Assembly (NCBI GenBank): GCA_900317305.1
Contig: ONGG01000019.1
Span: forward strand, 1 to 50,149
Direction of reading: 5' to 3'
DNA length: 50,149 nt
Source of the DNA: an uncultured Prevotellaceae bacterium
GTDB taxonomy: Bacteria; Bacteroidota; Bacteroidia; Bacteroidales; Bacteroidaceae
The first letter of the stretch is position 1. Every line of letters starts with the position of its first letter. This document shows, in pieces, positions 27,905 through 38,691 of the stretch. Position numbers and translations under genes: made by a program. The notes under the pieces were generated by a model. That model did no database searches, was not told the origin of the DNA, and worked only from the letters and a program-made list of their open reading frames with translations.

Positions 27905-30900
27905 TCAGTTCGTATTATCAATCTGATAAGTTCCCAAAATAATCCCGATGACAGCGGTCACATCGCTCATATTGATGAATCCATCGCCTATGACGTCAGC
28001 ATTGTCGAATACAAAAGTATCCAAAGACATTCCCAAGATGTAATTGATGATGATGGTGACATCGCTCATATTGACAAACCCATCGTTGTTGACATCGCCC
28101 AACAAGACATAAGGAGGCTCTTTGGGATGAATGATATCCTCGGCATCAATGGCCAGTGTGTCGGAAAGTGTTTCGGATGTGGATGACAAGTAAGCCCTGA
28201 ACACATCCAGCATATACTGACTGGTTTCATCGGTCGTGTCGGAAACCGTGTCATCAGTAGTGCCGTAGCCATCGTCATCGGTCGTGTCTGCTTGCTTTGA
28301 GACCGAAACCCACTGGTTTCCACTGATCACGTATCCTTGTTGGATGGTTTCCTGCGTATTGGAACTAATGAGCTGGGTTTCGCCTTTAGTCACCGTTGGG
28401 TGCAGGACGGTGGGTGCGATGGTGGTTTTCAGCGTCTGGAAATAGATGGTTTTACCCGCCAAACGCTCGTCGCAAGCCATCACACAGGGCACGTTGGCCT
28501 TTACGCCCTTTGAGAATGAAGTCCTGACAGTGTCGTTCTCCACGCCCTCGAAATTGAAGAGCCAGAAGTCACCCTCTTCAGCCTCGGCGTCGGCATACCA
28601 AGAAATAAAGGCATCGTCGGCGAGCACCTCTGCTGGTGTGAAGGGCAACGATAGGGTGCTCCAATTGAAGGTTACCGTATCGGCAATCTCACGTTGGTAG
28701 GAGACAATGCCTGAGAAAGACATCTCTATGGGGAAGTAATAATCATATCCATCGACAAGCGTCAGTTTGTTTCCCTTATTCGACGCATTGATGAAGTTGG
28801 ACGAGGTGAGTCCCGATGGGATTGTCCTGTCGAGCATATAGATGGTATTGGGGTTGGAGTTGGGCACCACGTTTGATGTGTACGCATTGTGGAGGTTGAT
28901 GGCAAGCGCCTCCTCGGGCACATGGAAGACTTTTGCTGCCAACATCGTCTTGAGCACACCATCCTTTGTCCAATAGATGGCCCCTTTGGCCACGGGTTTC
29001 ATCTCCGTGGTGTCGCTCTCCCACTCGTAGACGTTGTCTTTTGTGGACACCACCAGCGCATACTCTGCCGTGAAGTCAGAGATTGGCACATCGTATTCTT
29101 TGACAAGCGACTCACCCGGCAGCAGACTGATGAGCTCGCGATGACTCTCTTCCAGGTTGTCGTTACTGTCGAGCGAGGATACCGTGAGGTAGTTGTTGTA
29201 TGCCTTCTCGTCGTTGTTGCTGACCTTGACGCGGCACATTATCCTGTCGCCCACGATGGTGCCGAGGTCATCACTCAGGTTAAGCAACTCTATCTGCTTG
29301 TCGAGATGGCATCCTTCCGACACGTTGGTATAGAAATAATGCGTGTCGTATTCATCGACCGAGAGATAGAACTCGTCGGCATGCATATCGAATTTTTTAC
29401 TGGGGTCGACATATATGCCAAACTCACGGTTGCTGCCCGACTCGAAAAACATGTTATCGTAAGCGACTTGCGTAATCTGCCCTGTCGATGGGACCAGTTT
29501 TCTAAGATAGATGGGCCCATAGAAATCCTCGTCGTTGTTGTCGAAGTTGATGGTAAGCACATCCTTCTCCATTCTGACGTCGTTGACCACGAAATTGGCC
29601 TTGGGCACTGGCGTGAGTGTCATTTCGCGGTCGGTCATCTCCACCTCGACATAGTTTTGCTCTGTCCCTCCCATGAGTTGCCATGAGCCAGAGGAGGTGA
29701 GTTTGTAGACCGCCTTGAGTGTATAATGGCCAGAGAACCCGGCGCCTAATTCCAAGTTGCTAGCCTCAAAGGTCAATGGGGGATACGGTTTGAGGGATGT
29801 GGATACAGCCTTGACCACAGCTACAATATTGTCGTTTTTATCGCACAATGCCAGCCCGTAATAGAGGCTTTTCGCCACAGCTGTAGTATTGTTGAACGTT
29901 TGCTTGATACTGATGTCCTTGAAAGGGTTTTTCTTGGTGGTACGGGTATAGGTGTATCCACCCTTGATGCTCGGCCTTGAGCAAACTCTAAAGGGTCGGT
30001 CGGGAGCCACGAAATCGTCATTTCCCCTGGGTTTGATACCCAGGAGAGCAGACTGGTTGATGCTGAGTTGGTAGTTTTTGATGTTCTCGTCCAGATTCTC
30101 ACCCTGGGCGCACGCCACCGAAATGCGATAGTATCCGTTGCCTGCTCCCAGCCAGCCCCAGTTGATGTGGTAGAGTCCCTGCCCGTCGTAGCCATCACAG
30201 ACGAAGGTATGCCCAGCCCCGAGGTTGGTGTAGGCAGTGTAGATGACCGGTCGCCCGTTGGTGAGTTCGCGCACGAGCAGACTATCCCACTCTTCCTCGC
30301 TGTACGACTTGCGGTAAACATAATGGATGGTCTTGGGATAGTTGAAGTATTGGGGCATCCGCTGCGGCAAAATATCGGTAAAAGCCCCACTACCTGTGGC
30401 ATCGTAGTTCATTTCTGTAGCCTGGCCGCAGTAGAGAAGCAGTTTTGCCACCTCGTCGATGCTCTCCTGTGGAGTATCGCTCGACAACTGGTCAGGCATT
30501 TTGTCCCAATCGAATGTTGTGGACTGCAACTCTGGCATGTCGATGCCCAGGGAACTGGTAGTATAGGCCGGTATGACATTGGTGCTTGTCGTCGGGAAGT
30601 GATGGTAGCGCATTACCTGTGCCATAGCCACAGCCGTACACCCCGCGGGACATCTTGTAGAGTTGACCTGGGGGCACATGCTGTTGTAAGGGTCTTTTTG
30701 TCCCCACATTGAGGTGATGAGTGGCTCCACCACCTCGGTGGGATGACCAGCAATGTTTCTGGCCGGTCGCAAGACCCCTTCCGATATGGCCTCGATGCTT
30801 TGTGCGTATTGCTCAAGCCACACCCTCATGTTCTCGGGCATGTTGTCGTAGTCGAATTCTCCTTGGTCTGCATACCCCAGGATGCCATCGGTCTGGTCAT

Positions 30901-31132
30901 TCCCCGACACAATGACAAAGCCCCTTTTCCCAGTCAGGTTGAAGGCATACCATCCTGCCTGCTCTTTTGCCTTTCCCACGTGTGCCAGCCTCAACTTGCC
31001 AGAATTGGAAATGCGCAGACGTTTTTCCGCAAAGTCCTGTGCTTTGCGAAGAGCCTGTTGTTGAGAGATGGGGTTGGCCATAGCGAATGTGCTCACCAAT
31101 AAGAGGATGACCAAAGAGCAGATTTTATACAT
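27905..31132 (-). CDS. Secreted C10 (streptopain-type) cysteine peptidase with C-terminal dockerin repeats
   Basis: The protein has 1075 residues. It has a signal peptide (1-20), a Spi-type inhibitory propeptide (about 21-130), and a C10 catalytic domain (about 131-375) with the nucleophile in CPAGCTAVAMAQVMRYHHFP (Cys165), His308 in GAGHTFVCDGYDGQGLYHI and the NWGW motif (324-327), all as in streptopain. A long region of immunoglobulin-like strands follows (about 400-1000). The end holds two dockerin-type calcium repeats (DVNNDGFVNMSDVTIIINYI and DVIGDGFINMSDVTAVIGII). A type IX sorting domain is not obvious. The start at 31132 gives the signal peptide; the frame opens 27 codons earlier. Related Prevotella peptidases (interpain) degrade host proteins. 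It has its own promoter. Confidence 0.93.
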   Translation of the reverse strand: MYKICSLVILLLVSTFAMANPISQQQALRKAQDFAEKRLRISNSGKLRLAHVGKAKEQAGWYAFNLTGKRGFVIVSGNDQTDGILGYADQGEFDYDNMPENMRVWLEQYAQSIEAISEGVLRPARNIAGHPTEVVEPLITSMWGQKDPYNSMCPQVNSTRCPAGCTAVAMAQVMRYHHFPTTSTNVIPAYTTSSLGIDMPELQSTTFDWDKMPDQLSSDTPQESIDEVAKLLLYCGQATEMNYDATGSGAFTDILPQRMPQYFNYPKTIHYVYRKSYSEEEWDSLLVRELTNGRPVIYTAYTNLGAGHTFVCDGYDGQGLYHINWGWLGAGNGYYRISVACAQGENLDENIKNYQLSINQSALLGIKPRGNDDFVAPDRPFRVCSRPSIKGGYTYTRTTKKNPFKDISIKQTFNNTTAVAKSLYYGLALCDKNDNIVAVVKAVSTSLKPYPPLTFEASNLELGAGFSGHYTLKAVYKLTSSGSWQLMGGTEQNYVEVEMTDREMTLTPVPKANFVVNDVRMEKDVLTINFDNNDEDFYGPIYLRKLVPSTGQITQVAYDNMFFESGSNREFGIYVDPSKKFDMHADEFYLSVDEYDTHYFYTNVSEGCHLDKQIELLNLSDDLGTIVGDRIMCRVKVSNNDEKAYNNYLTVSSLDSNDNLEESHRELISLLPGESLVKEYDVPISDFTAEYALVVSTKDNVYEWESDTTEMKPVAKGAIYWTKDGVLKTMLAAKVFHVPEEALAINLHNAYTSNVVPNSNPNTIYMLDRTIPSGLTSSNFINASNKGNKLTLVDGYDYYFPIEMSFSGIVSYQREIADTVTFNWSTLSLPFTPAEVLADDAFISWYADAEAEEGDFWLFNFEGVENDTVRTSFSKGVKANVPCVMACDERLAGKTIYFQTLKTTIAPTVLHPTVTKGETQLISSNTQETIQQGYVISGNQWVSVSKQADTTDDDGYGTTDDTVSDTTDETSQYMLDVFRAYLSSTSETLSDTLAIDAEDIIHPKEPPYVLLGDVNNDGFVNMSDVTIIINYILGMSLDTFVFDNADVIGDGFINMSDVTAVIGIILGTYQIDNTN

Positions 31133-31158
31133 TTCACGCGATAGAAACAATTCGGCTG

Positions 31159-31187
31159 CAAAGTTAGCAAAAAAACGTGCAAAACAA
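31159..31187 (-). promoter_or_regulatory. Promoter of the C10 peptidase gene
   Basis: TAACTTTG (31159-31166) on the minus strand with TTG at 31185-31187, 18 bases upstream. The leader is about 25 bases. Confidence 0.65.
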
Positions 31188-31312
31188 GAAACAATTCTCT
31201 TTTTTTCAACCATTTATGGCAATAATAGGATTAAATATTTCGAACAAGGCTGTTGAGGCAATCATGCATATGGGAAAAAGCCAAGAGAAGACAGCCCCCG
31301 GGGTATGGGCAC

Positions 31313-31377
31313 AAAAAAAGGAGTACCGCCGTACTCCAACCTTTGTTAACCTTAAATCTAATACTATGAAAAACACG
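31313..31377 (-). ncRNA. Candidate small RNA gene, copy 1
   Basis: The predicted transcript of about 65 bases runs from just after TACCTTTG (31381-31388) to a terminator hairpin GGAGTAC-GGCG-GTACTCC (31320-31337) with seven T. Its inner part contains AAGGTTAACAAAGGTT, a short direct repeat. The 79 bases 31307-31385 recur without change at 38536-38614. No protein-coding frame of use is present. Size, lone promoter and terminator resemble the published description of the Bacteroidales-1 RNA motif, but I cannot test membership. It lies in the 400-base gap between the C10 peptidase and DUF58 genes; the rest of that gap holds the promoters and no gene. Confidence 0.7.
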
Positions 31378-31380
31378 ATG

Positions 31381-31412
31381 CAAAGGTAGTCTCTTTTCAA
31401 GAGACCTCCAAA
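31381..31412 (-). promoter_or_regulatory. Promoter of small RNA copy 1
   Basis: On the minus strand TTTG (31409-31412), 20 bases, TACCTTTG (31381-31388). The same layout exists at copy 2. Confidence 0.75.
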
Positions 31413-31448
31413 TCTTCGCCGCAGAAAAAGTGTATAAAGTACAATTAC

Positions 31449-31462
31449 TTGATTTATATCAA
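31449..31462 (-). promoter_or_regulatory. FNR/CRP-like palindrome upstream of small RNA copy 1
   Basis: TTGATTTATATCAA fits TTGAT-N4-ATCAA exactly. It begins 61 bases beyond the -7 element, the same distance as at copy 2, and is centred near -78. Confidence 0.55.
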
Positions 31463-31531
31463 TTGACCATACTTGGCGGCAGACAGATGTCATCAGTTGA
31501 ATGGTGTAATGGCCAGGCAAGGTTTGAATCG

Positions 31532-32845
31532 TTATACGAGCAAGTGTCTTGACTTCATCTCCATATATTTGTTGATGACATCGGCCGAGATGGCTTTGGG
31601 ATTGGTGATGACGCTATAGATGCCATTCTGCCTCAAGGTGCTCTGGATGAGTCGTCGCTCATAGATAAGTTTCTCGGCGATAACATGCTGGTAATAATCC
31701 TCCTCGGTGCGTTTGGGTGAGTTGGCGAACTCCGAGAGTTCAATGTCGTCGAAGAACACCACGAGCAGTCGGTGCCGCTTATTGAGCAGCCGGAGATACT
31801 CGAGTTGCCGCTGCAAGGCTCCAAAGTCGGTGAAGTTGGTATAGAGCACCATGAAACTCCTACGGGCCACCAACTTGTTGAGATTCGGACAAAGCATCGA
31901 ATAGTCGGTCTCGCCGAAGGTAGTCTGCTGGGCATAGAGCGCCTCAAGGATGCGGGGCATCTGCATGCTCTGCCGTCCGGCCGGCACGAAAGTATCCATC
32001 ACGTCGGCAAAGGTGACGATGCCCGCCTTGTCCTGCTTGCTCATGGCCACATAAGAGAGCACGAGCGACGAGTTGATGGCATAGTCGAGGAGTGTCATAC
32101 CGAGGAACGACTGTTGCATGAGCCTTCCCTTGTCGATGAGGCTGTAGATTTCCTGCGAGCGCTCGTCTTGGTAGACATTCACCATGAGGTGCGTACGCCG
32201 GGCTGTGGCTTTCCAGTTGATGGTACGGTAGTCGTCGCCCTGCACATAGTCGCGTATCTGCTCGAAGTCGGTGTTGTTTCCCGCCCGCCTGACACGTTTT
32301 GTGCCCGTCTCGGAAAGGTTATTGGCCGATGCCGCCATGAGATACTGCCTGAGTTTGAGGAAAGAGGGATAGACTTTCACCACCATCTCCTCGCCACAGG
32401 AGAACCTCCGCTGGATAAGTCCCAGACGGGTTGAAGCAAACACAAGTACCTTGCCAAAATGATAGGCGCCACGCTCGGTGGGCCGCAACGAATAGGAGAC
32501 ACTCTCGGTGCCCCCCTTGCCGAGCCGCAGACGGAGCAGGAAGTCACGTTTCTGGAACTGCTCCGGCAGTTCGTCGATGATGCGGACGTCGATGCCGAAA
32601 GGCGAGCGATTGGCTACCCTCAGCACCACCTCGTTGTCGTCGCCGAGCGAGTACCGCTCCGCACATTTTCGTGAAGCCCCTACCCTAGCCTTGGTGAAAA
32701 GCGTCAGGGCTTCGGCAGCGGCAGCCACGACCACGGCCATAAGCAGCCATTGCCCCACCACGAAGAGTGGTGGGAACAGCATCCCGGCAGCCATGATAAC
32801 GGCTACGACAACGAGGACTACATATGACCTGCCCGTAAGAAACAT
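31532..32845 (-). CDS. DUF58 protein with von Willebrand A-like domain
   Basis: The protein has 437 residues. Two membrane segments lie at the start (about 5-48). The DUF58 signature NNTDFEQIRDYVQGDDYRTI, followed by NWKATARRT, lies near 195-225. A vWA-like region follows, in which the metal site is degenerate (LIDKGRLM in place of DxSxS). DUF58 proteins usually work with a MoxR ATPase, here the neighbouring gene 10 bases upstream. Function unknown; a role in assembling or activating an envelope complex is inference. It is the last gene of the seven-part cluster. Confidence 0.9.
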   Translation of the reverse strand: MFLTGRSYVVLVVVAVIMAAGMLFPPLFVVGQWLLMAVVVAAAAEALTLFTKARVGASRKCAERYSLGDDNEVVLRVANRSPFGIDVRIIDELPEQFQKRDFLLRLRLGKGGTESVSYSLRPTERGAYHFGKVLVFASTRLGLIQRRFSCGEEMVVKVYPSFLKLRQYLMAASANNLSETGTKRVRRAGNNTDFEQIRDYVQGDDYRTINWKATARRTHLMVNVYQDERSQEIYSLIDKGRLMQQSFLGMTLLDYAINSSLVLSYVAMSKQDKAGIVTFADVMDTFVPAGRQSMQMPRILEALYAQQTTFGETDYSMLCPNLNKLVARRSFMVLYTNFTDFGALQRQLEYLRLLNKRHRLLVVFFDDIELSEFANSPKRTEEDYYQHVIAEKLIYERRLIQSTLRQNGIYSVITNPKAISADVINKYMEMKSRHLLV

Positions 32846-32855
32846 GACCTATCGT

Positions 32856-33842
32856 CTATTTGGGAACTTCGATTTGCTCAAGAAGCGTGGCGATGAGCCT
32901 TGCCGCATTGTATCCCTCCATCTCAGCCTCAGCAGTGAGTACAAGACGGTGCTGGAGCACCGACGGAGCAACGAACTTGATATCGTCGGGAGTGACGAAA
33001 TCGCGGCCCTGGATCAGCGCATAAGCCTTCGACGCCTGCAACAGCGCCACCGCCGCGCGGGGCGAGGCGCCCAGATACACCGCCTTGGTGTTGCGTGTGA
33101 GCTGCACCAGGTCGACGATATACTTCAGCAGACTCTCTTCCACCACCACATCCTTGATCATCGCACGGAATTCCAGCAACTCTTCCTTCGTGATCAGAGG
33201 AGCGAAGTCGTCGAGTTTGGTGAGGCGTATGTTCTCATGATGTCGCTTCAGGATCACCAATTCGAGTTGAGCAGGCGGATACACCATCACCACCTTCATG
33301 AGGAAACGGTCGAGCTGGGCCTCGGGCAACTTATAGGTGCCCTCTTGCTCCACGGGATTCTGCGTGGCGACAACAGTAAACAAGTCGCCCATGGGATAGG
33401 TGGTGCCATCGATGGTGGCCTGCCGCTCCTCCATCACCTCGAAGAGCGCTGCCTGAGTCTTGGCAGGTGCGCGGTTGATCTCGTCGACAAGCACAAGGTC
33501 GGCAAAGACAGGACCTTTGTGGAACACAAACTCGGCATCCTTCTGGTTGAAGACGGTGGTGCCCAACACATCGCTGGGCATGAGGTCGGGTGTGAACTGG
33601 AGCCTGCTGAACCGTGCGTCGATGAGCCGGGCCATCACTTTGGCCAGCAAGGTCTTGGCCACTCCAGGAACGCCCTCGAGGAGCACATGTCCGTTGGCCA
33701 TCACAGCAGTGAGCAGCAAGTCGACCGCATTGGTCTGTCCCACCACCACCGTACCGATTTTCTGTCGCACGAGTGAGATTTTCTCATGAAAAGCCGTGAG
33801 GTCTAACCTTTGTTGAGTGTTTTCTTCCATAAGATTCGGCAT
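32856..33842 (-). CDS. MoxR-type AAA+ ATPase
   Basis: The protein has 328 residues. Walker A is GVPGVAKT (about 57-64), Walker B is LVLVDEINRAPAKTQAAL (about 120-137), and sensor 1 lies in VVATQNPVEQEGTY, all as in the MRP subfamily of MoxR ATPases. These are cytosolic chaperone-like machines that help mature complexes, usually with vWA partners; the DUF58 gene follows. The ATG at 33830 (MEENTQQRL) is an alternative start. One base separates it from the DUF4350 gene stop. Confidence 0.94.
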   Translation of the reverse strand: MPNLMEENTQQRLDLTAFHEKISLVRQKIGTVVVGQTNAVDLLLTAVMANGHVLLEGVPGVAKTLLAKVMARLIDARFSRLQFTPDLMPSDVLGTTVFNQKDAEFVFHKGPVFADLVLVDEINRAPAKTQAALFEVMEERQATIDGTTYPMGDLFTVVATQNPVEQEGTYKLPEAQLDRFLMKVVMVYPPAQLELVILKRHHENIRLTKLDDFAPLITKEELLEFRAMIKDVVVEESLLKYIVDLVQLTRNTKAVYLGASPRAAVALLQASKAYALIQGRDFVTPDDIKFVAPSVLQHRLVLTAEAEMEGYNAARLIATLLEQIEVPK

Positions 33843-33843
33843 A

Positions 33844-35223
33844 TTAGAGATGTTTTGAAATGTTTTCTATCTGGTCGATATAGGAGATGAGGTCATGGCT
33901 GCTGATATCGCCTCCGGCGGTAGCCAAGGTTTGGTGCAGGTGTTGCAGCAAGGTGGCCACCTCATTCTCATCGAGCCCTGTGCGCTGGGCCAGCAAACGG
34001 GCGTTCTGCTCCTCGCCGCGCTCATCGTCGAGGTCGATCATCATACGCCGACGCACCTCGTCCTTGAAATACGTGTATTTCTTGCGCAGCAGGTCGATAT
34101 TGTCGTGGCGCCGGTGATAGATGGTGCCGAGCAGCCTCACGAACTCCAGATTGCGGTTCACGGGTGGCTCGTGCACAGGGACGACACGCTGCCGCCGGCG
34201 GGCTGTGAACACCATGAAGAGCACGATGGCAGCCAACAACGTGTAGAGCGCTCCACGCAGGGGTGGTTTGGAGAGCATGTAGGAGAGTGGCGACTTGGTG
34301 AAGTCGTCACCAGAGTCACCTGTATAAGATTTCTCAAACAGCTTGCTGTCGACCCTATAAGTAGGATAATCTGCGAGTTGTGCCATCTGTCGGTTGAGGA
34401 ACTTGGAGACATGCGGATCGAGAGCACCATAGTTGGTAAAGAAAATTGGTGTGGATGAGACGTAAAGCCAGCCTTTGCCTATGTGGCCGGCCACCGAGAT
34501 GGGCATCCGCAGTTGGCCTTTTGACTCAGCAAGAATGAGATCGTGATTATCATCCGACAAGTAATTGAACCATTCGTGCCTCTGTTGAATCACGGAATCC
34601 CGAGCATATACGCCACCAAACTCGGAGCGAACAACTTGTTGTGCCAAAGCCAATTGTTTCCACAAGGTATCTGCCCGCAAATAAGCCGTAGGCTTGAAAC
34701 GGGAGTCGAAACCAAGTGAGATCCATCCAGAGAACAGGCCCTGACTGACATTGACAGAAAGCGGTGCCTGCCCCACCCAATCCAAAGTGTCGGGCACCAG
34801 ATGCCCCTTAAGCGCCTTGGCCAGTTTTGACACACTGGAATAATCGAAACTCGTACTCAAATGATATTTTTCCCGCAGATAGGTGTTATAGTCATCGAGG
34901 ACTACCAGCACCTTGTCGCCCCGGCGCAGGCAAGAGTCGACGCGTTGCCATAGTTTCTCGTCCGATCTCCATGAGTTGTTGATGATGAGCAGCGACTTGC
35001 GTCCGGGCACATGCATCAGGCTGTCGAGCGACTGATTCCAGAAAGTATAGCCATTAGGCATGGTGGCCGAGGCCAGGGAATCGAAGATCTGGCAGTCGTA
35101 AGGCTCATCGCTCTCATGGAGATAGTTCCTCTGCCACGTGAACGTGCGGTTGGCCATCATCCACAAGTAGACAACGACCATCACGCCAACGAGCATGGCG
35201 ACGGCAAGCAGGTTCTTTCTCAT
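33844..35223 (-). CDS. DUF4350 membrane protein
   Basis: The protein has 459 residues. An N-terminal membrane segment (about 5-24) is followed by a large outer region with a Rossmann-like, glutamine-amidotransferase-fold element (KSLLIINNSWRSDEKLW, GDKVLVVLDDYN), the DUF4350 domain. A second membrane segment near 310-330 (LYTLLAAIVLFMVFTARRRQ) precedes a cytoplasmic tail rich in charged helices. Such proteins recur beside MoxR and DUF58. The catalytic residues of true amidotransferases are not evident. It overlaps the DUF4129 gene by 4 bases, so they are translated together. Confidence 0.82.
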   Translation of the reverse strand: MRKNLLAVAMLVGVMVVVYLWMMANRTFTWQRNYLHESDEPYDCQIFDSLASATMPNGYTFWNQSLDSLMHVPGRKSLLIINNSWRSDEKLWQRVDSCLRRGDKVLVVLDDYNTYLREKYHLSTSFDYSSVSKLAKALKGHLVPDTLDWVGQAPLSVNVSQGLFSGWISLGFDSRFKPTAYLRADTLWKQLALAQQVVRSEFGGVYARDSVIQQRHEWFNYLSDDNHDLILAESKGQLRMPISVAGHIGKGWLYVSSTPIFFTNYGALDPHVSKFLNRQMAQLADYPTYRVDSKLFEKSYTGDSGDDFTKSPLSYMLSKPPLRGALYTLLAAIVLFMVFTARRRQRVVPVHEPPVNRNLEFVRLLGTIYHRRHDNIDLLRKKYTYFKDEVRRRMMIDLDDERGEEQNARLLAQRTGLDENEVATLLQHLHQTLATAGGDISSHDLISYIDQIENISKHL

Positions 35224-35846
35224 GCCTCACCTCCTTTCTCCACTTCCTGTGCCAGCGCGCTCATCTCATCGCACAAAGCCGGAGTAGCAGGAAACTTGCC
35301 GTATCTCACCCTCAGGAAATGCCGGGTCATGGTGGCGAACGCCGGATGTGCAAACTCGCTGGAGTATTGCGAAGGGGTCTTGTAGATGCGCCAGTCGATG
35401 CGGTGGCTCTCGTCGAGCACACGCAGCGTATGCAAGTAGACATAGCGCACGATGGCCGCATAGTCGTTTTGCCGGCGGGCCTTGTCGAGCTCGCTGTCCA
35501 CATCCACGGCATAGATATCCTCGGCATCCTCATCCCAATTGCCATCCCCCACTTCGGGATTGGCATAGAACAAGCGACTCCGATAAATCCAGTAGGCCAG
35601 GCACGCCGCCAGAACGACGCCTATCAGTGCATAGACAGCAGTGGGCACGCTGGCCAGAAAATCGATGATGCTGTCGAAAAAACGCCCTATATAATCGGTC
35701 TGCTCGGTGGGTTCGGGACTCATCGACGGCCATTGCTCCTGCCATACAAGAGAGTCGCCCACGAGCGACCGGTTGTAGTCGTGCCCCTGGAACAAACTCG
35801 CAGCCAGCGAGTCGTTGCTCATGATTTGGTCGGTACGGACAGGCAT
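35220..35846 (-). CDS. DUF4129-type single-pass membrane protein
   Basis: The protein has 208 residues. One membrane segment lies near 70-92 (AVYALIGVVLAACLAYWIY). The cytoplasmic part shows the DUF4129 pattern: acidic linker, ARRQNDYAAIVRYVYLHTLR, then DWRIYKTPSQYSSEF and FLRVRYGKFPAT. In actinobacterial clusters DUF4129 likewise lies between DUF4350 or membrane genes and MoxR. The frame opens further upstream inside the previous gene, and 35846 (MPVRTDQ) is chosen as it starts 17 bases after that gene's stop; 35822 (MSNDSL) is the alternative. Confidence 0.8.
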   Translation of the reverse strand: MPVRTDQIMSNDSLAASLFQGHDYNRSLVGDSLVWQEQWPSMSPEPTEQTDYIGRFFDSIIDFLASVPTAVYALIGVVLAACLAYWIYRSRLFYANPEVGDGNWDEDAEDIYAVDVDSELDKARRQNDYAAIVRYVYLHTLRVLDESHRIDWRIYKTPSQYSSEFAHPAFATMTRHFLRVRYGKFPATPALCDEMSALAQEVEKGGEA

Positions 35847-35862
35847 ATGGCAGGATGCGTAT

Positions 35863-36753
35863 TTATAAGTTCTCGAAATTATGTATCGACCTCTCGTATG
35901 ACTCCTCGCCTCCCTGAGCGTGCGACATATAGCCGAAATGATACACACAGTAGAGTTGAACCATCGACCCCACCATACAGCAGCTGAGATAGCCTATGAT
36001 GGTAAGGGCAATGGCGACAAAGCGCAGGAACATGACATACCACCACTCCTCGCCCGAGGAGGAGAAGGCGTCGAACAAGCGGGCCAGCATCCATGGCATA
36101 TTGACCGACAGCAACATCATGGCACCGAAAAGTATCACCAGGAAGATGGCAAATGCCAGACTGAACCAAGAGGAGAAGCCCATCTTGAAAGCCTCGGCAA
36201 AGGCCACCACACTCCCCCGCCGCTTGATCATATAGACAGGAGGGAACAGCGCCAGGGGTGTGGCCAGCACATTGATGAGGACGGCAAGCAGAGGATGTGG
36301 GACGGCATACATCAACAAGCAGATGAAGACGAGCAGCGACGCAGGAACAAGTGATGGCAAGAGCGCGGCGCGCACATAGGGCCACAACATGCGCAGGGTG
36401 GCATTGTCGAGACAGAAGTCGTTGTCCTCATAGGCTGCCAACAAGGAGTAGACATGCACAAACATCATCCACGCAGCCAACGCCGCCACACAGATGAAGA
36501 ATCCGTGTCCCGGACCTGAAATCCAAGAGAAAAGGCCCCATACATCAAAATCGGTGGTGCCGATGTAATTCTCATCGCGCGAATAGTTGAGGAACGACGC
36601 CACGGTGAGTGCCACGCACAAAGGCGTGTAAAGCACCGCCAACAATAAGAACCAGGCCTTGCGGCAGAGCCGCATGAAATCGAACACCGCCTCGATACGC
36701 TGCGAAAGGGTGCGCCATTGGTAGATGAGTATCTTATCCCTTACTTGTTGCAT
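35863..36753 (-). CDS. Polytopic membrane protein of the MoxR/DUF58 cluster, no named family
   Basis: The protein has 296 residues. About six hydrophobic segments are visible (near 32-53, 80-104, 128-150, 153-172, 196-222, 240-265), with a cytoplasmic N-terminus. I do not recognise a named family. Its place between SpoIIM and DUF4129 and the overlap of 20 bases with the SpoIIM gene show that it belongs to the same transcript. A membrane scaffold role is inference. Confidence 0.8.
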   Translation of the reverse strand: MQQVRDKILIYQWRTLSQRIEAVFDFMRLCRKAWFLLLAVLYTPLCVALTVASFLNYSRDENYIGTTDFDVWGLFSWISGPGHGFFICVAALAAWMMFVHVYSLLAAYEDNDFCLDNATLRMLWPYVRAALLPSLVPASLLVFICLLMYAVPHPLLAVLINVLATPLALFPPVYMIKRRGSVVAFAEAFKMGFSSWFSLAFAIFLVILFGAMMLLSVNMPWMLARLFDAFSSSGEEWWYVMFLRFVAIALTIIGYLSCCMVGSMVQLYCVYHFGYMSHAQGGEESYERSIHNFENL

Positions 36754-37699
36754 TGCGGTGTCGCTTTATGGGTAAGAGCACATAGTAGAAAATGAAGAAC
36801 GCCAAAGAGCAGAGGATGACCAGAAGCCTGAGCAGGTCGCCCACCTCGGTGTAGCGGGTGAAAAATCCCTCGATGAAGCCCGCTACGACAAACAACGGAA
36901 CCGTGGAAGCGAGCACCTTGACACTATGTCTGGCCGCCTTGACAAACGACTGTATCCGGCTGTAGGAGCCGGGAAAGAGCCATCCGTTGCCCAAAGTGAT
37001 TCCAGCGCCTCCTGCGATGACGATGGCCGACAGCTCGAGTGTGCCATGGAGCATGATGGCCAGTATCGACTCGACGAAGAGCCCCCGCACGATGAAGAAG
37101 GTGACGAAGGCCCCCACCATGATGCCATTGTTCATCAAGAAGTAGCAGGTGCCGAAACTGGTGAAAATTCCCATGACAAAGGTTAGAAATGCCACCTTCA
37201 CATTATTGATGGTGATGCCCAGGAACGACAGCAACTGCGAGTCGCCGCCATACACGGCCATGGGTTCGCCTTTCTCGATGTTGTCAAGGGTCATGTCTAC
37301 ATACCCATCGCCAAGGATAAGACGTGGGAAGTCGGGGTCGCCCAGTGTCGACAGCATCCCGATGATGATGAAAGCCACGAAGACGGCCAGCGAGACGAGC
37401 AGCGGCCGGCGTGCCTCATAGACACTGAGCGGCACCTCGTGTGTCCAGAACGTGACGAGCCGCATCCACGGGTCGCGCTTGTTGCGGTAGAGGTCGCGGT
37501 GCAACGCCAGAGCCAGGTCGTTGAGATATGGCGTGACTGCCGATTCGGGAAAATGGGTCTGCGAGAAAGCCAGGTCGGATGTCACCTCGTTATAGGCGTC
37601 CACCAACTCGTCGGGTGTGGCGAAAAGCCGGTCGCCCAAGAGCATTTCCGCTTTCCTCCATTTCTCGATGTGCCGACTGACGAACTGCGCTTCCTTCAT
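36734..37699 (-). CDS. SpoIIM/DUF95 family membrane protein
   Basis: The protein has 321 residues. It is a stage II sporulation protein M family member, here in a non-sporulating lineage. The N-terminal cytoplasmic region (MKEAQFVSRHIEKWRKAEML) is followed by about five membrane segments, with the family motif around FTSFGTCYFLMNNGIMVGAF (about 200-219) and HGTLELSAIVIAGGAGITLG (about 240-259). SpoIIM proteins commonly sit next to RDD-domain genes, as here. The frame opens 19 codons upstream, but 37699 gives the conserved start and a proper leader. First gene of the minus-strand cluster. Confidence 0.9.
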   Translation of the reverse strand: MKEAQFVSRHIEKWRKAEMLLGDRLFATPDELVDAYNEVTSDLAFSQTHFPESAVTPYLNDLALALHRDLYRNKRDPWMRLVTFWTHEVPLSVYEARRPLLVSLAVFVAFIIIGMLSTLGDPDFPRLILGDGYVDMTLDNIEKGEPMAVYGGDSQLLSFLGITINNVKVAFLTFVMGIFTSFGTCYFLMNNGIMVGAFVTFFIVRGLFVESILAIMLHGTLELSAIVIAGGAGITLGNGWLFPGSYSRIQSFVKAARHSVKVLASTVPLFVVAGFIEGFFTRYTEVGDLLRLLVILCSLAFFIFYYVLLPIKRHRNATSKG

Positions 37700-37736
37700 A
37701 AATGAGAATGAAAGGTTATTTTTTCCTTTTGGAATG

Positions 37737-37769
37737 CAAATATATGGAAAAATCAACTAATTTTGCAAA
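37737..37769 (-). promoter_or_regulatory. Promoter of the SpoIIM-to-DUF58 operon
   Basis: On the minus strand TATATTTG (37737-37744) with TTTG at 37766-37769, spacing 21. It overlaps the RDD promoter on the other strand. Confidence 0.65.
37758..37765 (+). promoter_or_regulatory. -7 element of the RDD gene promoter
   Basis: TAATTTTG ends 19 bases before the RDD start. It lies inside the spacer of the divergent promoter, so the two cannot be occupied at once. Confidence 0.6.
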
Positions 37770-37784
37770 CAAACACAAGATTTT

Positions 37785-38504
37785 ATGTCACAAACCAGCA
37801 TAATAACCGGTCAATACGTCTGCATCCGCCAACCCGCCGCCACGGTGACGCAAAGGTTCGTGGCCTGGATCATCGACTACTTCATCATAGCGTTCGCGTC
37901 GACCATTTTCCTTTCCTTATTCTCGGCTCTCGCTAATCTTGGCGAATTCTGGGTCGCTATCTACCTCATTATCCAAATGGCCATACTGACATATCCATTG
38001 GTGATGGAAGTGTTCAACGACGGGCAGAGCATAGGAAAGATGGCGGTGGGAATCAAAGTGGTCAATCTCGACGGGTCGAAGCCCTCGGCGGGTTCCTACC
38101 TGCTCAGATGGCTGCTGCTGCTCATCGACATGCTCATGGGATTCGTCGGCCTCACCTTCATCATCTTCACCAAGAACAGCCAGCGGTTGGGCGACCTGGC
38201 CGCGGGCACCACCGTGGTGAAGGTGCACCGCCAGAATCTCTCGATCAGCAACTACGACCTGCAATACATGAACAAGGACTATCAACCCTCCTATCCTGAG
38301 GCCTCCAACCTGTCGGTGAAGCAGTTTGAACTGATTGCAAACACGCTTTACGACATGAACAACAAGATGCGCGACATCGACCTTAGGATGCTGGGCACAA
38401 AAGTGCAACAGGTGCTGGGCATCAACGCCAGAGAAAACACGGCCGAAGCATTCCTACACACCATCTTCAACGATTTCCAATACTACGCCACCAAGGTGGT
38501 TTGA
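37785..38504 (+). CDS. RDD family membrane protein
   Basis: The protein has 239 residues. The RDD domain covers about 18-150 with three membrane segments; the family signature is in RFVAWIIDYFIIAFA (about 26-40), and further FNDGQSIGKMAVGIKV and LGDLAAGTTVVK match the conserved ends. The remainder is soluble and partly helical. Function unknown; RDD proteins are suggested to move small molecules or ions. It is transcribed away from the SpoIIM gene with an 85-base gap, a pairing found widely. Confidence 0.93.
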   Translation: MSQTSIITGQYVCIRQPAATVTQRFVAWIIDYFIIAFASTIFLSLFSALANLGEFWVAIYLIIQMAILTYPLVMEVFNDGQSIGKMAVGIKVVNLDGSKPSAGSYLLRWLLLLIDMLMGFVGLTFIIFTKNSQRLGDLAAGTTVVKVHRQNLSISNYDLQYMNKDYQPSYPEASNLSVKQFELIANTLYDMNNKMRDIDLRMLGTKVQQVLGINARENTAEAFLHTIFNDFQYYATKVV

Positions 38505-38541
38505 AGAAGGGGCAGGAAGGCGGTTGTTGGGATAAGGGCAC

Positions 38542-38606
38542 AAAAAAAGGAGTACCGCCGTACTCCAACCTTTGTTAACCTTAAATCTAATACTATGAAA
38601 AACACG
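38542..38606 (-). ncRNA. Candidate small RNA gene, copy 2
   Basis: Identical to copy 1 over 38536-38614 (79 bases), including the hairpin GGAGTAC-GGCG-GTACTCC (38549-38566) and T run. The promoter is TAACTTTG (38610-38617); against copy 1 only one of the two free 'nn' bases in the -7 element has changed. It occupies the 284-base gap between the convergent RDD and PPDK-like genes, with no other gene in it. Confidence 0.7.
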
Positions 38607-38609
38607 ATG

Positions 38610-38641
38610 CAAAGTTAAGCACTCGCATCGTGTTTTGCAAA
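38610..38641 (-). promoter_or_regulatory. Promoter of small RNA copy 2
   Basis: On the minus strand TTTG (38638-38641), 20 bases, TAACTTTG (38610-38617), the same spacing as copy 1. A further shared block TACACTTTTC lies just upstream. Confidence 0.75.
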
Positions 38642-38677: not shown

Positions 38678-38691
38678 TTGATTTATATCAA
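38678..38691 (-). promoter_or_regulatory. FNR/CRP-like palindrome upstream of small RNA copy 2
   Basis: TTGATTTATATCAA, unchanged from copy 1 and at the same 61-base distance from the -7 element, although most bases between are different. Confidence 0.55.

Follow-up and report, generated by a model that had tools for sequence, protein, structure and literature searches.

FopS, an sRNA family described in 2025 in Bacteroides thetaiotaomicron, turns down nutrient-uptake genes of gut Bacteroides (PMC11697453). That report describes the R1 seed of the RNA, the repression of SusC translation by FopS within a circuit that also includes RbpB and is induced by bile salts, and 14 copies of the gene in B. 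thetaiotaomicron without strong sign of subdivision. There the FopS regulator is left unnamed, the question is raised why multicopy sRNAs are retained, and the RbpB circuit is expected to be widespread, both of its parts being conserved in Bacteroidaceae. GibS differs in carrying a second seed, R2, and in its promoter, PM2 (PMC11697453, PMC7366714). The window analysed here, a stretch of 50,149 nucleotides from an uncultured Prevotellaceae bacterium, holds two genes that belong to the FopS family (Rfam RF04319). The RNA itself is already known; what appears to be new here is the putative control of its promoters.

Two FopS genes in the window

Both genes lie on the minus strand and consist of a -33/-7 promoter, a 67-nt RNA and a terminator (Table 1). 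Each copy matches the full RF04319 model (positions 1-71) with 78 bits against a cut-off of 56, and at this score chance is excluded. Pairwise comparison confirmed the identity over 79 bases seen by the initial annotation (31307-31385 and 38536-38614, the longest such run); beyond it only about half of the positions agree, except in the promoter boxes and an upstream palindrome. The single change reported among the two free bases of the -7 box is borne out (TACCTTTG versus TAACTTTG), as is the hairpin with seven T at the end of each copy, where GGAGTACGGCGGTACTCC precedes the T run. A 14-bp palindrome, identical in both copies at -86 to -73, had been overlooked. The TTTG and TAnnTTTG boxes are, by sequence, those of a sigma-ABfr promoter, and columns -12, -11 and -8 to -5 of the -7 box are invariant across 51 aligned promoters of the class A defined below.

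Table 1 Features of the two FopS loci in the window
Feature	Position	Strand	Basis
FopS sRNA, copy 1	31310..31376	-	RF04319, 78 bits, cut-off 56; putative start at 31376
FopS sRNA, copy 2	38539..38605	-	RF04319, 78 bits; same sequence as copy 1; putative start at 38605
Copy 1 seed core, 24 nt, R1-type, antisense to CTTAAATCTAATACTATG-form sequences	31350..31373	-	sequence; own-genome antisense search
Copy 2 seed core, same 24 nt as copy 1	38579..38602	-	sequence
Copy 1 terminator (intrinsic), seven T after a hairpin at 31320-31337	31313..31337	-	sequence, fold
Copy 2 terminator (intrinsic), seven T after a hairpin at 38549-38566	38542..38566	-	sequence same as copy 1
Copy 1 -7 box TACCTTTG	31381..31388	-	sequence
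Copy 2 -7 box TAACTTTG	38610..38617	-	sequence
Copy 1 -33 box TTTG	31409..31412	-	sequence
Copy 2 -33 box TTTG	38638..38641	-	sequence
Copy 1 class A site, TTGATATAAATCAA, an FNR-box-like palindrome centred at -79.5	31449..31462	-	sequence
Copy 2 class A site, TTGATATAAATCAA, an FNR-box-like palindrome centred at -79.5	38678..38691	-	sequence

The window RNA has the FopS layout, an unpaired 5' seed followed by an intrinsic terminator, and its fold leaves the 5' part free before the terminator hairpin (z -2.7). The other two FopS copies of the genome fold well (C61, z -4.8) and no better than shuffles (C40, z -0.2). A GTG-initiated frame is open through the RNA and terminator of both window copies; a protein-coding RNA was rejected, since the run before the hairpin varies in length by single bases among relatives and the frame is therefore not a conserved reading frame.

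The initial annotation had likened the RNA to Bacteroidales-1, a motif restricted to Bacteroidales, which was rejected because it is absent from the covariance-model matches around copy 1; at E up to 5 these comprise FopS, GibS, BTnc231 and TarB. The R1 seed is present and the R2 of GibS is absent, the 67-nt RNA aligning to the GibS model with its middle left out. The description of the function as unknown is out of date, as FopS is reported to repress SusC at the level of translation in B. thetaiotaomicron (PMC11697453). The proposed small multicopy RNA family, transcribed from promoters of its own, held up: the present genome has four copies, and FopS occurs in 111 of 120 genomes of the genus and in all 57 genus genomes that are at least 90% complete with at most 5% contamination. 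The copies of a genome were also examined for concerted evolution, and no clear case emerged, the first 56 nt being identical in 4 of 49 within-genome pairs versus 184 of 6506 between-genome pairs.

A palindrome at -79.5 and a second promoter class

The palindrome shared by the two copies, TTGATATAAATCAA, is of the CRP/FNR type (TTGAY-W-TA-W-RTCAA) and places a TTGAT-N4-ATCAA type element at a fixed position before the core promoter; the consensus FNR box is given as TTGATnnnnATCAA in PMC1274295. We counted this class A site in 116 promoters of the genus from 114 loci, namely the four of the present genome, 29 and 80 from the genus matches listed, and L197 from the family listing. The matches listed are the best-scoring part of all genus matches, with weak FopS matches under-sampled. 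To be included, a promoter needed at least 150 bp of upstream sequence and a -7-like TTNG ahead of the start, and any 210-bp stretch that recurred identically entered the count a single time; these filters cost none of the 113 loci checked. The 68 promoters of other genera were likewise taken from the best scores of the family listing. As a control we used 367 promoters from 230 loci. Since 117 of these loci had been retrieved with the class A pattern, the number of FopS promoters in the control analysis (162 of 205) is biased and was not used.

Among the matches listed, the palindrome (at most one mismatch) starts at -85 to -87 in 68 of the 116 genus promoters, and none of the 116 has one at another place within 150 bp of upstream DNA. 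In shuffled sequences the mean was 0.1 palindromes at that place (largest 1) and 4.3 anywhere, and 4/367 of the other TTG-N17..22-TAnnTTTG promoters carry it there. Columns that the search left free are also kept in 51 promoters aligned at -86, with T(-80) in 98%, A(-79) in 100% and A(-70) in 98%. The spacers are at most 60% mutually identical in 46 of the 68 palindrome-bearing promoters, so the palindrome is not part of a block inherited whole, and that explanation was rejected. A plain FopS family of constitutive paralogues kept for dosage, in which the upstream element would be UP-like or structural, could account for the canonical core promoter, for the identity of the window copies and for the weak or absent subdivision reported for the 14 copies in B. 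thetaiotaomicron (PMC11697453). We nevertheless consider it highly improbable, because an inverted repeat that holds its position amid diverged DNA, and does so in some copies only, is characteristic of a protein site.

Three of the four FopS copies of the present genome have a class A site, including C40, whose shuffle-like fold counts against our preferred explanation. In the same genome the gene for a Dcu-type C4-dicarboxylate transporter has the same box centred at -110.5, three helical turns further out. The genome has seven more exact sites, of which two are close to the end of a contig and one falls within a long open frame, a further point against that explanation. At locus L018 the box lies across the -33 region of a different sRNA-like gene; neither L018 nor L019 comes near the gathering score of any Rfam family, and a blastn search with the L019 RNA among the collected loci returned a single 22-base match (E 0.07). 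The exact class A pattern was found in 40 of 251 family genomes, spread over 7 of 30 genera, and its reversed-pattern control had no match. The site is absent from 60 of the 68 other-genus promoters among the matches listed, which again counts against the preferred explanation, and it was not found in 15 g3, 11 g13 and 11 g8 promoters, among which Bacteroides was not singled out. Our search of the literature found no report of FopS control of the kind seen here.

A further point against the preferred explanation is that 48 of the 116 genus promoters, among the matches listed, are without a class A site. Many of these carry an AT-rich element that spans -79 to -58; its two halves occur together in 29/48 site-less promoters versus 0/68 of class A (among the matches listed). 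Both classes occur together in 20 of 27 genomes in which at least two promoters were read, the present one included (among the matches listed), and copies of equal output thus appear, from their upstream sequences, to have different inputs. Paralogues that differ in this way may serve as distinct inputs that share one output.

We propose that the class A copies of FopS are probably controlled by a CRP/FNR-type activator at -79.5 and that their seed lowers translation without an RRM partner. A dimeric activator of this family would bind the palindrome and, from a class I position, recruit RNA polymerase, so that these copies would be switched on by the signal of the activator, perhaps redox or respiratory given that the Dcu-type transporter gene has the same box. 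Copies without the palindrome would answer to another regulator through the AT-rich element at about -79 to -58. The seed would pair with translation starts and lower translation, as FopS does on susC in B. thetaiotaomicron, here without an RRM protein such as RbpB.

The palindrome could also be the site of a repressor, or of a protein outside the CRP/FNR family, with FopS released by a signal, and the box over the -33 region at L018 does have a place typical of repression. A steric repressor normally sits on or next to the core promoter; at -79.5 both core boxes stay free, and the half sites match the FNR box, which makes this reading rather unlikely. One input of FopS in Prevotella is most likely, on sequence grounds, a CRP/FNR-type signal.

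Candidate regulators, partner and targets

Three CRP/FNR-family proteins of the genome score over the Pfam cut-off, namely a CrpPg-type protein related to PDB 2gau (L054), a CRP-family relative of PDB 1zyb (L055) and an HcpR-type protein (L056). The last is nearest to 9day and 5v30, which we take to be HcpR structures, and is divergent from an adjoining gene that is presumably nrfH-like. The HcpR identity of 9day and 5v30 is in line with PMC12750200.

An L055-type protein is the candidate activator of class A, an assignment that is weakly supported. Such proteins occur in all seven class A genomes examined, the present one included (one at only 26% identity), and equally in four of four genomes without a class A match; presence or absence of the regulator gene is therefore not informative and was dropped as a cause of class A. 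The recognition helix of E. coli FNR uses a Glu, which that of the L055 type lacks. It is possible, if doubtful, that the class A regulator is instead of the L054 or the L056 type, in keeping with the global regulatory role described for CrpPg of P. gingivalis (PMC12040651) and with the nrfH-like neighbour of L056, which fits an FNR-like role. Searches at E<=1e-5 did not find the L054 type in two of the seven class A genomes (G157 and G173) or the L056 type in six of the seven, absences that are soft since the genomes are incomplete (G173, 89%). HcpR was rejected as the regulator on the published HcpR2 motif for most Bacteroides, GTAACnnnnGTTAC, which is unlike the class A site (PMC1274295).

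A search for RRM proteins, the family of RbpB, with PF00076 (RRM-1) gave no match in the present genome and control matches in Bacteroides ihuae; at 92.9% completeness of the genome this absence is not final. RRM proteins were found in 2 and FopS in 17 of 17 genus genomes, and a tally over 251 family genomes gives 42 with both, 190 with FopS only, none with RRM only and 19 with neither. FopS is thus far commoner than RRM proteins, and a general need for RbpB is improbable. The 18-nt antisense of the seed, with up to three mismatches, has two matches outside FopS in the present genome, neither at a susC gene; this number is not above chance, given one match of the reversed-pattern control. Both matches end on start codons, with pairing energies of -19.2 and -17.6 (best 1% of random windows, -18.0), and no susC start of this genome lies within three mismatches of the pattern.

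Viral seeds and known systems

The initial annotation held that copies keeping the sequence and losing the promoter would speak against its gene model. Such copies do exist in viral contigs, where 19/31 carry the seed without a promoter, placed at the end of a different transcript that has a terminator other than that of FopS; none was met among the bacterial copies read. As these bacterial copies keep all parts, we regard the viral ones as reuse of the seed, not as a refutation. No class A site was found in 17 viral contigs examined. Nine phage genes preceding viral seeds were compared with PHROGs: five had no match and four fell into families of unknown function, one of the four also giving a weak Rz-like spanin match.

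We tentatively put forward a wider reading, which we hold less probable than its negation, that FopS is an interchangeable output module in which one 24-nt seed serves at least two activators through different upstream elements, mostly free of RRM proteins and with phage-borne mimics. Phages would then have taken the bare seed with another terminator to the 3' ends of phage mRNAs and of a tRNA, and the mimics they make would reset outer-membrane transporters of the host, possibly phage receptors themselves. Should RNA be made from the viral copies, they would offer a striking example of a host sRNA seed borne by phages. The points raised by the FopS paper, namely the regulator, multicopy retention and the RbpB circuit, become testable.

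FopS of B. thetaiotaomicron and the RNA of the present genome are alike in their 5' seed, in the 65-70 nt layout of a single-stranded 5' end and a terminator, in the sigma-ABfr type promoter and in having several copies. They differ in copy number (14 there, four found here), in the -79.5 palindrome of the present genome and its lack of a detected RRM protein, and in that no susC start here has a long seed match. GibS (RF04182) resembles the first part of the RNA, with 40 bits under a cut-off of 115, but its model spans 142 nt compared with the 67-nt RNA here. The sRNA genes FnrS and Spot 42 of E. coli also have a CRP/FNR-type promoter palindrome, through which the respiratory or carbon state leads to repression of translation. 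We know of no sequence relation between either of them and FopS, and the present system differs from both in that paralogues of one family within one genome differ in the box.

FopS genes and their surroundings

The two minus-strand genes in the window are members of the FopS small RNA family, each matching the Rfam model RF04319 (BTncRNA_FopS) with 78 bits against a cut-off of 56. The initial annotation had seen in them a small multicopy RNA family resembling Bacteroidales-1; the family itself stands, with FopS in place of the suggested motif, and the reported identity over 79 bases is exact. The GibS model of Rfam matches a FopS copy below its own cut-off (40 against 115), because GibS and FopS have a common start. 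A DUF58 gene precedes copy 1, copy 2 lies after a gene whose product has a PPDK N-terminal domain, and the block separating the two copies comprises DUF58, MoxR-type ATPase, DUF4350, DUF4129, SpoIIM and RDD genes. The gene for a large protein starts about 100 bp past the end of copy 1.

Positions of the features discussed (window coordinates unless a contig or locus is named)
Feature	Position	Strand	Description
FopS copy 1	31307-31385 (stretch identical to copy 2)	minus	TTTG box, TAnnTTTG box, RNA beginning GTGTTTTTCATAGTATTAGATTTAAGGTTAAC, hairpin plus seven T
FopS copy 2	38536-38614 (stretch identical to copy 1)	minus	Same elements as copy 1
Palindrome of copy 1	31449-31462		TTGATATAAATCAA, at -86 to -73
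Palindrome of copy 2	38678-38691		TTGATATAAATCAA, at -86 to -73
Large protein	27905-31213	minus	Peptidase C10, Spi inhibitor and dockerin type I domains
RNA of about 165 nt	C23:128179 (L019:1501-1755)		Unannotated, with terminator
RNA-like gene	C19:24694 (L018:1370-1514)	minus	Own terminator
FopS-like RNA	L352:3690-3762		TTTTTCATAGG...ATAGATTTAAGG

The source genome (3.68 Mb, 92.9% complete) carries four FopS copies, the two in the window and one on each of the contigs C61 and C40. Close pairs also occur in other genomes of the genus, 7.3 kb apart in G070 and about 23 kb apart in G009 and G086 (loci L082/L083, L069/L090 and L091/L096), and the paired arrangement may therefore be old. A count across the genus bears out the proposed family, with a FopS match in 111 of 120 genomes, including all 57 with a completeness of 90% or more and a contamination of 5% or less; family-wide, 232 of 251 genomes have FopS, and these represent 29 of the 30 genera.

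A palindrome at a fixed place in FopS promoters

Both window copies are preceded by a CRP/FNR-type palindrome. The corresponding position of the C40 copy reads TTGATATATGTCAA; the DNA upstream of the C61 copy contains no such palindrome. Promoters with this element are here termed class A and those without it class B. Across the genus, TTGAYnnnnRTCAA with at most one mismatch occurs in 68 of 116 distinct promoters (67 of 115 in a first tally), always starting at -85, -86 or -87 relative to the inferred RNA start, and at no other place in the 150 bp upstream of any of the 116. Dinucleotide shuffles of these promoters gave a mean of 0.1 palindromes at that place and 4.3 anywhere. Search-free columns conserved in 51 promoters aligned at -86 comprise the central TA (98 and 100%) and the AAA after the palindrome (76, 98 and 80%), and the spacers of palindrome-bearing promoters have a mean identity of 33%, with 46 promoters mutually at most 60% identical there.

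As a control, the palindrome was found at that place in 4 of 367 other -33/-7 type promoters of the sampled loci. At one of these, L134, a single palindrome is equidistant from two divergent promoters, one serving FopS and the other a short RNA-like gene that contains an inverted repeat; at another, L352, a class A promoter precedes an RNA that is FopS-like but not FopS.

Outside the genus, 8 of 68 promoters are class A (5 of 6 in the genus g10, 2 of 17 in g22 and 1 of 1 in g14), with none among the 15, 11 and 11 promoters of g3, g13 and g8. A stricter, exact class A pattern was matched in 40 of the 251 family genomes, drawn from 7 of the 30 genera, and its reversed control in none of the 251. 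The matches listed for the class A form include named contigs of Prevotella denticola, P. veroralis, P. multiformis, P. disiens, P. jejuni, P. communis and P. illustrans, two Xylanibacter species and Paraprevotella xylaniphila, as well as uncultured-genome records titled Clostridium sp., Lachnospiraceae and Mediterranea (titles as given). In Prevotella sp. oral taxon 299 (L405), TTGATAAAAATCAA is seen by eye at -86.

The 48 genus promoters without the palindrome have conserved columns of their own at -75 to -69 and -65 to -59. A simple test for this second class requires TTAA in -79 to -70 plus GTTA, TTAA or GTAA in -69 to -58. Of these 48 promoters 29 pass it, as do 27 of 60 palindrome-free promoters of other genera, and none of the 68 class A promoters does. 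The form TTAAACCATGTTATAAAAC is seen by eye in several g3 and g13 promoters, as is the second kind of element in Bacteroides ovatus (L404) and the inducible Bacteroides phage BX-TP2 (L403). Both classes occur together in 20 of the 27 genus genomes in which at least two promoters were read, class A alone in 6 and class B alone in 1. A two-base insert in the tail of the seed, the 5' R1-type pairing region, is present in 19 of 116 RNAs, none of them with the palindrome.

Exact matches to TTGATNTANRTCAA occur at seven further places in the source genome, two of them near contig ends, one inside a long open frame and one ahead of a Dcu-type C4-dicarboxylate transporter gene, where its centre lies by count at -110.5, three helical turns beyond the -79.5 of the FopS palindromes. 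Another lies by count at -79.5 of the class A promoter for the RNA of about 165 nt, which has no Rfam match near a cut-off. A further one, TTGATTTAAATCAA on C19, overlaps the -33 region of the RNA-like gene, flanked by what we take to be nagB-like and hflX-like genes. The pattern TTGAYNNNNRTCAA is found at 23 places against 11 for its reverse, so that an individual site may be a chance occurrence unless other evidence supports it.

Candidate regulators

Three CRP-family proteins of the source genome, L054, L055 and L056, exceed the Pfam cut-off. The L056 gene, whose product best matches 9day, is divergent from a gene whose protein we take to be nrfH-like. The best match of L055 is PDB 1zyb and that of L054 is PDB 2gau, named CrpPg in PMC12040651. 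We surveyed ten further genomes, six with class A and four without a class A match, at E<=1e-5: L055-type proteins are present in 6/6 (at 26% identity in G157) and 4/4, L054-type proteins in four of the six class A genomes and L056-type proteins in none of the six. By eye, 6 of 11 loci have a presumably apbE-like gene ahead of the L055-type gene, and all 11 share R-x-x-V/L-S in the recognition helix. On this survey, L055 is weakly favoured as the candidate class A regulator. In Rodionov et al. (PMC1274295), the HcpR2 motif in most genomes having HcpR2 is given as GTAACnnnnGTTAC and the consensus FNR box as TTGATnnnnATCAA.

Viral seeds, partners and a proposed mechanism

The exact 24-nt FopS seed is also present in 31 viral contigs (L372-L402, IMG/VR), with a bacterial-type -7 box before it in 12 and none in 19. 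Seventeen of the 19 promoterless seeds lie 7-139 nt past a same-strand frame, one lies at 321 nt and one at a contig start. The 60 bases past the seed fold into a hairpin of -12 to -26 kcal/mol in every one of the 19 contigs (raw energies, without shuffle comparison), and the downstream sequences are of 12 different kinds. The promoterless seeds sit close to where phage genes end or, on L372, a tRNA-Arg, whose end is two bases from the FopS match. Four of six promoterless contigs passed the Rfam cut-off for FopS and two just missed it.

A PF00076 search of the source genome (92.9% complete) returned no RRM protein, the class to which RbpB, the FopS partner in Bacteroides thetaiotaomicron, belongs. 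Among the 251 family genomes, 42 have an RRM protein, all of them with FopS, 190 have FopS without RRM and 19 have neither; within the genus, RRM proteins occur in 2 of 17 genomes as against 17 of 17 for FopS. The seed antisense (18 nt, at most three mismatches) has two matches outside FopS in the source genome against one for the reversed pattern. In each case the match stops precisely on the ATG of a long frame, presumably a kbl-like gene in one and a DUF4301-like gene in the other, and the pairing energies are close to the strongest 1% among 2000 random windows. In number not above chance, these matches fit action at translation starts, without pointing to susC, the FopS target in B. thetaiotaomicron.

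Membership of the FopS family, the promoter, the palindrome and its constant position are established; beyond them, we propose that a CRP/FNR-family dimer activates FopS from a class I position, and that the RNA may pair with translation starts and work without RbpB. In the literature searched, the main texts of mostly non-subscription papers, we found no report of these upstream elements of FopS promoters; on the sRNA itself, the papers retrieved were PMC12119571 and PMC11697453, and in the main text of the latter the word Prevotella is absent. FopS, with 14 copies in B. thetaiotaomicron according to PMC11697453, is a known RNA, here with a new, well-supported but putative control layer.
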